Part shown: positions 47,610 to 61,480 of the stretch, piece after piece
How the letters are laid out: the number at the start of each line of letters is the position of its first letter
How positions within the stretch are numbered: the stretch's first letter is position 1
Origin: Acetobacterium woodii DSM 1030
Lineage (GTDB): Bacteria; Bacillota; Clostridia; Eubacteriales; Eubacteriaceae
Direction: 5' to 3'
DNA length: 64,000 nucleotides
Assembly: GCF_000247605.1 (NCBI RefSeq)
Contig: NC_016894.1
Coordinates: 310,001 to 374,000 of the forward strand
Notes under the pieces: model-generated
The model's database searches: none
Told to the model about the DNA's origin: nothing
The model's input: only the letters and a program-made list of their open reading frames with translations
Made by a program: the position numbers and the translations under genes

Positions 47610-47686
47610 AGGGGTATAGCCAAGTTGGTAAGGCACCAGATTTTGATTCTGGCATTTCGTAGGTTCGAGTCCTGCTACCCCTGCCA
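47610..47686 (+). tRNA. tRNA-Gln(TTG)
   Basis: Acceptor AGGGGTA / TACCCCT, anticodon stem CCAGA / TCTGG around TTTTGAT (anticodon TTG), discriminator G, encoded CCA. Fits with gatCAB serving Gln-tRNA in this organism. Confidence 0.93.
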
Positions 47687-47702
47687 TTTTATTCGGCAGA
47701 GC

Positions 47703-47844
47703 AAACAGAATTAAATAATTATCATGACCCATTAGCTCAGTTGGTATAAGCAGAGAACCAAAAATGCACGAATGAAATGAGTGAACATTTTTGCGTGAAT
47801 CGCTTAGTCAGGCAAACTAGTGGATTACACAAACCGATGAAGAC
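47703..47844 (+). ncRNA. tRNA-Lys-derived hairpin element, copy 1
   Basis: Starts with a 44-bp stretch (47703-47746) identical to 47985-48028, i.e. the upstream region plus first 21 bases of tRNA-Lys, then leaves the tRNA. Folds: P1 CCATTAG (47729) / CTAGTGG (47817), P2 AAGC (47748) / GCTT (47802), P3 CAAAAATG (47759) / CATTTTTG (47786), P4 CAC (47767) / GTG (47781). It lacks an anticodon arm and cannot be a working tRNA. Paired with copy 2, which preserves the fold by compensatory changes. Confidence 0.6.
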
Positions 47845-47984
47845 AAACAAAATTAAATATTTTATAATCCATTAGCTTAGTTGGTATAAGTAGAGAGCCC
47901 AAAATAGACGAGTGTAACGAGTCAATATTTTGGTGCGAATCACTTAGTCAGGCAAATTAACGGATTACACAAACCGATGAAGAC
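47845..47984 (+). ncRNA. tRNA-Lys-derived hairpin element, copy 2
   Basis: Diverged repeat of copy 1, 140 bp. P1 TCCATTAG (47868) / TTAACGGA (47957, one mismatch), P2 AAGT (47888) / ACTT (47942), P3 CCAAAATA (47899) / TATTTTGG (47926), P4 GAC (47907) / GTC (47921). Compared with copy 1, four base pairs changed on both sides. The tail GGATTACACAAACCGATGAA and onward is the same in both copies. The tRNA-like start here is more decayed (AATCCATTAGCTTAG). Confidence 0.6.
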
Positions 47985-48007
47985 AAACAGAATTAAATAA
48001 TTATCAT

Positions 48008-48083
48008 GACCCATTAGCTCAGTTGGTAGAGCATCTGACTTTTAATCAGGGTGTCGGGCGTTCAAGTCGCCCATGGGTCACCA
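48008..48083 (+). tRNA. tRNA-Lys(TTT)
   Basis: Acceptor GACCCAT / ATGGGTC, D-arm GCTCAGTTGGTAGAGC, anticodon stem CTGAC / loop TTTTAAT (anticodon TTT), T-arm CGGGCGTTCAAGTCGCCC, encoded CCA. Intact gene at the end of the cluster. Confidence 0.95.
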
Positions 48084-61184: not shown

Positions 61185-61480
61185 TTAAAAACGATGAACG
61201 AGGAAAGTAGTTGATGTTGGCGTCTTCAGAGAGTTGGAAATGCTGGGAACCAATGGCAATGACGTTAATGAAGTTCCCTCCGGAGTTGATCTGCTGAACC
61301 GGCGCGATATTAAGTGCGATATGCGTCCCGACATTAGGCAAATACGGTGTTCCTCATCGTTAAATAAGGAAAGAGCAGCGTGATAACCGTTTTGCTCGAC
61401 AAGGTGGATTAGTAACTAATCAAATTAGGTGGTACCGCGAGTCAGACTCGTCCTTTTTATTAAGGATGGGTCTTTTTGTT
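61185..61480 (+). promoter_or_regulatory. T-box riboswitch leader of paaK
   Basis: Shows the T-box parts in order: AGTAG of the specifier loop near 61208, AGAGAG at about 61230, GGGAACCAATG in the distal arm, the T-box AGGTGGTACCGCG at 61427-61439, and the terminator AGACTCGTCCT / AGGATGGGTCT plus T's (61445-61478). The likely specifier is TTC (Phe) at 61274-61276 in AATGAAGTTCCC, but the loop register is uncertain. A T-box in front of a phenylacetate-CoA ligase points to control by an aromatic amino acid. Confidence 0.88.

Follow-up and report, generated by a model that had tools for sequence, protein, structure and literature searches.

Tandem hairpin units beside a tRNA-Lys gene of Acetobacterium woodii are probably copies of a small non-autonomous mobile DNA element

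The small dispersed repeats of Nostoc and the palindromic elements of Rickettsia are very small and mobile, they form nested insertions, and they lie inside both RNA and protein genes. To our knowledge, no enzyme is known for either of them, nor do we know of a form that restores its target at tRNA D-loops; the Nostoc repeats were reportedly studied by Elhai in 2008. The integrative elements and prophages that target tRNA genes measure kilobases, have an integrase, and it is usually the 3' part of the gene that they restore. REP and REPIN sequences are small non-autonomous hairpins with internal mismatches, which are thought to be moved in trans by a Y1 enzyme and may lie inside genes (PMC3733652, PMC3116915).

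Two tandem units between tRNA-Gln and tRNA-Lys of A. woodii DSM 1030 resemble each of these systems in part. Like the Nostoc and Rickettsia repeats, they belong to tiny and apparently mobile repeats that occur nested and within RNA and protein genes, although their sequence and hosts differ. With the tRNA-targeting integrative elements and prophages they share a piece of tRNA, probably carried along, and a gene left whole after insertion; however, the units comprise 120-140 nt, restore the 5' part and cut in the D-loop. Similarly to REP and REPIN, they are small, non-autonomous hairpins with internal mismatches that sometimes lie inside genes, whereas they carry no GTAG/CGTC tag, are present in few copies per genome, are concentrated in tRNA genes and come with a segment of their target, and the RAYT-like genes found here have no adjoining core. 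The miniature derivatives of IS200/IS605 likewise insert 3' of a short motif, have hairpin ends and lack a target duplication, as do the nested and intron copies of the present family, but the units form a single hairpin, revealed no relation to tnpA and use a looser target motif (YA). Topic searches of the literature yielded no description of such an element, and searches of 5.39 million papers, outside the subscription literature, for sequence strings of the core gave no relevant match; the family of roughly 140-base hairpin elements is previously undescribed.

The window is the whole stretch of 64,000 nt that was analysed (NC_016894.1, positions 310,001 to 374,000), and all positions are counted within it. 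The tRNA-Gln and tRNA-Lys genes are the last two of five consecutive tRNA genes in the window, and the region comprises the following features:

47610-47686: tRNA-Gln, left flank of the two-unit region
47703-47725, plus strand: leader of the left tRNA segment, repeated with 100% identity as the leader at 47985-48007
47726-47746, plus strand: left tRNA-Lys 5' segment (GACCCATTAGCTCAGTTGGTA), 0 mismatches in 21 nt compared with 48008-48028
47747-47807, plus strand: core hairpin 1, 61 nt, directly after GGTA; 51.0 bits with model R1
47808-47865, plus strand: 58 nt of unit 1 comprising its tail and AT-rich leader, without conserved structure
47866-47886, plus strand: right end of unit 1, a tRNA-Lys 5' segment with 3 mismatches when compared with tRNA-Lys
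47887-47947, plus strand: core hairpin 2, 61 nt; 50.3 bits with model R1
47948-48007, plus strand: 60 nt of unit 2 comprising its tail and AT-rich leader
48008-48083, plus strand: intact tRNA-Lys(TTT), the first 21 nt of which form the right end of unit 2

An earlier note on this DNA had described two tandem units of about 140 bp and a 44-bp identity covering the upstream region and the start of tRNA-Lys. Both are present: the units measure 140 and 142 bp, with 84% identity over 139 nt at a spacing of 140, and the direct repeat (47702-47746 and 47984-48028) extends over 45 nt that are 100% identical. While the repeat is real, the start of the unit at the tRNA leader had to be revised, and the better-fitting register starts at TAAG (47747, 47887) and closes with the GGTA in the following tRNA 5' segment (47886, 48028). 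The left tRNA-Lys segment ends precisely at the D-loop GGTA^ (the caret marks the junction throughout). The distance from the end of the core to GGTA^ is 79 nt in unit 1, where GGTA^ belongs to the right tRNA-Lys segment, and 81 nt in unit 2, where it lies inside the intact tRNA-Lys. In the window the two-sided motif TAAGYAGRGARCC-N10-40-GYGAATCRCTTAG was found only at 47747-47807 and 47887-47947, the shuffle expectation being 0. In the test for the cloverleaf of a functional tRNA or tRNA-like gene, with acceptor, anticodon and T arms, neither ARAGORN nor Rfam called a tRNA at 47703-48007. A T-box leader is located elsewhere in the window (61185-61458, plus strand, 120.8 bits).

The core has the family form TAAGYAGAGARCC-variable stem-GYGAATCRCTTAG. 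Four compensatory pairs had been reported between the two copies, namely AAGC/GCTT to AAGT/ACTT, CAAAAATG/CATTTTTG to CCAAAATA/TATTTTGG (two pairs) and CAC/GTG to GAC/GTC; all four are in the sequence, and an additional change from A-T to G-C (AGAGAACC..GTGAATC to AGAGAGCC..GCGAATC) brings the total to five. Units 1 and 2 as a whole are predicted to fold as the same long hairpin (z from -2.0 to -2.7 as RNA), and the window's two hairpins alone, folded as DNA, gave z values of -2.9 and -4.1; according to these predictions, the fold can be adopted by DNA as well as by RNA. Among 55 distinct 43-nt cores, 98.9% of the cells pair and 8 pairs are changed on both sides, compared with 2.8 in shuffles. 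The covariation score of 0.211 (0.090 when shuffled) was reached in 0 of 500 shuffles, and slid controls collapsed. Moreover, the fifth pair of the core is C-G in 87 and T-A in 54 of 141 distinct cores and nothing else, although the search motif also permitted C-A and T-G. In the internal loop GA/GAA the rare variants change in concert (GG/ACA, GC/GCA), which suggests a tandem G-A step.

No conserved pairing outside the core, or of the hairpin with the tRNA 5' segment or the tail, was found across the copies. Thus the proposed selection on a fold is supported, by covariation, for the hairpin only. A tRNA-like RNA with an acceptor stem built from the 5' segment and the tail was also considered and rejected, as the pairing CCATTAG/CTAGTGG seen in the window is lost in other copies. 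The ends of the hairpin are more conserved (0.91-0.95) than the tails and leaders (0.55-0.85), a difference that is partly ascertainment, since the cores were gathered by motif and the conservation of their ends is partly set by that search. Units found via the tRNA segment alone contained the core in all but one case.

The genome of A. woodii contains seven cores, every one at a tRNA: four at three tRNA-Lys loci, one at tRNA-Phe and two in tandem at tRNA-Leu(CAA). The sequence before each core is the 5' segment of the intact tRNA downstream, and unit 1 of the window shares 119 nt, with 100% identity, with the unit at the tRNA-Lys locus C1:3339932. As regards the check proposed in the earlier note, the hairpin indeed recurs with a conserved fold 5' of tRNA genes in related genomes. 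The exact two-sided motif was detected in 25 of 67 genomes of the order (the reversed control motif in 0), in 5 of 391 genomes of the class sample, all within the order, and in 3 of 399 genomes of the phylum sample. A scan of contigs revealed host genera including Acetobacterium, Eubacterium, Alkalibaculum, Sporomusa, Anaerosalibacter, Alkaliphilus and Tepidibacter, and the distribution is patchy over Eubacteriales, Tissierellales, Sporomusa and others. Rfam covariance models gave no match to the units up to E = 5, a plasmid search for the units gave no match, and the phage matches listed were all on the tRNA-Lys body. On the viral contig IMGVR_UViG_3300006226_000108 (L328:6172-6228) we observed a 57-nt copy that consists of a 46-nt core plus TTTCTCCACCA; it lies within an apparent open frame of this GC-rich contig, and by eye the frame stays open, as it likewise does with Rickettsia palindromic elements in proteins.

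At tRNA genes the layout follows sharp rules. For 129 of 194 distinct cores, the sequence in front is a tRNA 5' segment in agreement with the next tRNA, and in 121 of these 129 the junction is the D-loop GGTA^ or GGCA^. Each of the isotypes involved (Lys, Thr, Phe, Leu, Cys, Gly, Arg, Trp and Asn) shows a 5' segment of its own. In the near cases, with one exception, 50-64 nt separate the end of the core from the start of the intact tRNA; up to the GGYA^ inside the intact tRNA there are 73-85 nt, regardless of the length of the segment; the Cys copies have a longer segment of 25 nt and the same total distance. In a test blind to tRNAs, 139 of 198 cores proved to have the 14 nt on their left repeated downstream, in 134 of the 139 at a distance of 73-85 nt. 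These copies are partly kin by descent, so that the count does not represent independent events, and more weight lies with the range of isotypes and orders covered. The long form thus consists of the hairpin and 73-85 nt (about 119-143 nt in total), with the tRNA 5' segment repeated at its right end, so that the downstream tRNA gene is complete. Core types are common to differing tRNA isotypes and tails, which implies that cores move or are converted between loci. A simple tandem duplication was rejected on account of the junction and size rules.

Several other arrangements were observed around tRNA genes. Over the 198 cores, the distance from core to right junction has two peaks, at 76-77 and 81-82 nt, which appear to track tRNA isotype and clade. 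Some tRNA-Lys units of several species (L016, L018, L033, L035, L039) show the D-loop variant GTTGCAAAGC or GTTGCCAAGT in place of GTTGGTATAAGC. At L105:900-1500 (minus strand), L109 and L061, cores lie 3' of tRNA-Phe and a terminator, after a D-arm-like segment ending in GAGCA^ or AAGCA^; at L105 the core is followed by the 3' part of tRNA-Phe with a degenerate 5' part, and about 252 bp are repeated in tandem as a block. A separate subfamily (L020, L029, L031) follows tRNA-Asp with no tRNA segment in front, and GCTTATGCAATTATYGACA, located downstream of these cores, is common to the three genomes. The spacers from tRNA-Tyr to tRNA-Lys in Acetobacterium (L010, L012, L017, L037, L116) contain another palindromic repeat, AAGCTTTATCCCAATTTC..GAAATTGGTCGGAAGTTGAGCG..CGAAACGACAGTGATAAAGC.

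The hairpin also occurs outside tRNA genes. In genome G037, from another family of the order, the same layout was found antisense at the 3' end of 5S rRNA (...CGACCTACTCTCCCA^core-tail-...CGACCTACTCTCCCA^GGACG...), with 78-79 nt from the core. A short form comprises the hairpin and about 11 nt, 54 nt in total. Short-tail cores are nested inside other cores (L125, L151 twice, L158, L164), and removal of the 54 nt restores the host core. Furthermore, an occupied and an empty group II intron of genome G069 (L266 and L260) are distinguished by exactly 54 nt, at GTACACA^GAGAACC. Neither the nested nor the intron insertions have a target duplication beyond 1-2 ambiguous bases. Other cores start at the last base of 23S rRNA (L204), follow directly after the tRNA CCA in Sporomusa (L120, L196), or lie in hairpin-rich intergenic stretches and broken RHS-like genes. 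The cores of L133, L189 and L198 are followed by a second small hairpin (GTTCTATAGC..GCTATAGAAC); they are situated in RHS/YD-repeat-like coding regions, where they introduce stop codons.

Judging from sequence comparison, the two units of the window are probably copies of a small non-autonomous mobile DNA element. There is good support for the earlier suggestion that a mobile element enters tRNA-Lys and restores the gene, but the limitation to tRNA-Lys no longer holds: at least nine tRNA isotypes and 5S rRNA are involved, in several orders, along with exact insertions elsewhere. The covarying hairpin begins at TAAG, and the short site that lies 5' of it has YA as its end in most cases. An enzyme provided in trans, either a recombinase or a single-strand transposase, would recognise the folded hairpin and cut before TAAG and after the YA at the right end; the TAAG end would be joined to the base after the target YA^, and the right end of the element, also YA^, to the remaining target. 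With its right end in the D-loop of an adjacent tRNA, the resulting cassette would be able to enter that tRNA gene harmlessly. Tandem arrays may arise from repeated insertion at the same GGYA or from unequal recombination, and the outcome in the window would be the two units before tRNA-Lys. We infer from the shared hairpin that the short and the long form are linked, and spread within the same isotype could be due to homologous gene conversion. That the folded hairpin end, together with a right end at 73-85 nt defined by the target gene, constitutes a mode of transposition of its own, with self-repairing insertion, is a tentative proposal.

As to the enzyme, an IS200/IS605-type (HUH, Y1) transposase or RAYT acting on single-stranded hairpins is a possible but doubtful candidate. 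The absence of target-site duplication at the nested copies and at the occupied and empty introns (54 nt, exact), the insertion 3' of a short motif and the hairpin with an internal loop agree with such an enzyme, and a RAYT-sized Y1 gene (PF01797) is present in most genomes of the genus, with one in A. woodii at C1:3135876-3136205. However, no core flanks any such gene: the canonical core was found beside none of the Y1/RAYT-like genes in 20 neighbourhoods of the order, nor beside Y1 genes in 30 neighbourhoods of other core-bearing genomes, and Y1 neighbourhood matches with 4 mismatches allowed per half were judged to be chance. Thus the repeat copies that flank a RAYT gene in REP systems have no counterpart among the cores. 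Within the neighbourhoods of Y1 genes we found no full element encoding tnpA with shared ends. The GTAG or CGTC tag is also lacking, and the 55 distinct 43-nt cores start with a paired AAG-containing end, the first position being a T-A pair in 51 and an A-T pair in 2. Moreover, the core-bearing genome G829 had no Y1 match. MITEs (DDE type) are defined by terminal inverted repeats plus a short target duplication, and no short duplication beyond 1-2 ambiguous bases was seen at the exact sites.

It is rather unlikely that the hairpin and about 25 nt insert and make a long target duplication (45-60 bp) each time, for instance by reverse transcription or gap repair, without carrying the tRNA segment; the unit would still be a mobile element. 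At L023, L132 and L182 the direct repeats of leader plus tRNA segment measure 51, 60 and 50 nt, respectively, with leader repeats that reach 30-39 nt beyond the tRNA segment, and these fit a long target duplication equally well. The tails are also alike between isotypes within a genus (Lys/Phe, Thr/Leu). On the other hand, there are only 4-11 nt of native spacer between the upstream tRNA and the left segment at L019, L033, L021, L014, L046 and L108, where the leader repeat is absent, which implies that the leader of the unit need not come from the site. No such duplication exists at the group II intron and nested sites, and the fixed distance runs to the YA^ junction, not to the start of the repeat.

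It appears improbable that the unit is a structured RNA with a regulatory or processing role in tRNA operons, being co-transcribed with the pre-tRNA, with a protein or nuclease binding to the hairpin and the tRNA 5' segment serving as a decoy or processing signal. Such an RNA would account for the strong covariation, for the conserved hairpin ends within the limits of ascertainment given above, and for the orientation of the cores near tRNAs, of which 160 are sense and 2 antisense. Yet the hairpin has no conserved pairing to the tRNA segment or tail, and unit presence varies between orthologous spacers (the empty one in Eubacterium has 8 nt). The repetition of the layout antisense on 5S rRNA implies that the transcript sense of the target is irrelevant and argues for action at the DNA level, so that DNA-level mobility fits better than a tRNA-linked RNA. 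With the hairpin present also in group II introns, at intergenic sites and in RHS-like repeat genes, the new tRNA-linked RNA of the earlier note finds no support as a general explanation.

A group II intron domain turned SINE-like parasite of the intron reverse transcriptase is highly improbable. The hairpin does occupy one homologous intron site in distant genomes, and Rfam places the introns at L221 and L194 in RF02005, with the hairpin extra to that model; however, hairpin-free introns of the family match the Rfam model in full, and the units contain no group II catalytic domains. The intron is absent from most unit-bearing Acetobacterium, and RF02005 had no match in the genome of A. woodii itself, which speaks against mobilisation by the enzyme of that intron. 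Neutral debris of tandem tRNA duplication, to which the eroded units and relics could be ascribed, has next to no probability in view of the same precise junction and size across isotypes and orders, the covariation and the exact insertions elsewhere.

If the tentative proposal of self-repairing insertion into tRNA and rRNA genes is true, it would represent a mode of transposition outside the REP, IS200/IS605 and MITE models. On the mobile element reading, a parasite of about 120-140 bases would live within highly essential genes that it leaves unbroken. The rules are sharp and testable in culturable acetogens (the YA^ junction, the covarying hairpin and the fixed distance to the target copy), and they would offer a way into the long-standing question of how the tiny palindromic repeats of bacteria move. 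The tRNA 5' fragments beside tRNA genes in these genomes would then be insertion scars, not to be taken by default for pseudogenes or expressed tRNA halves.
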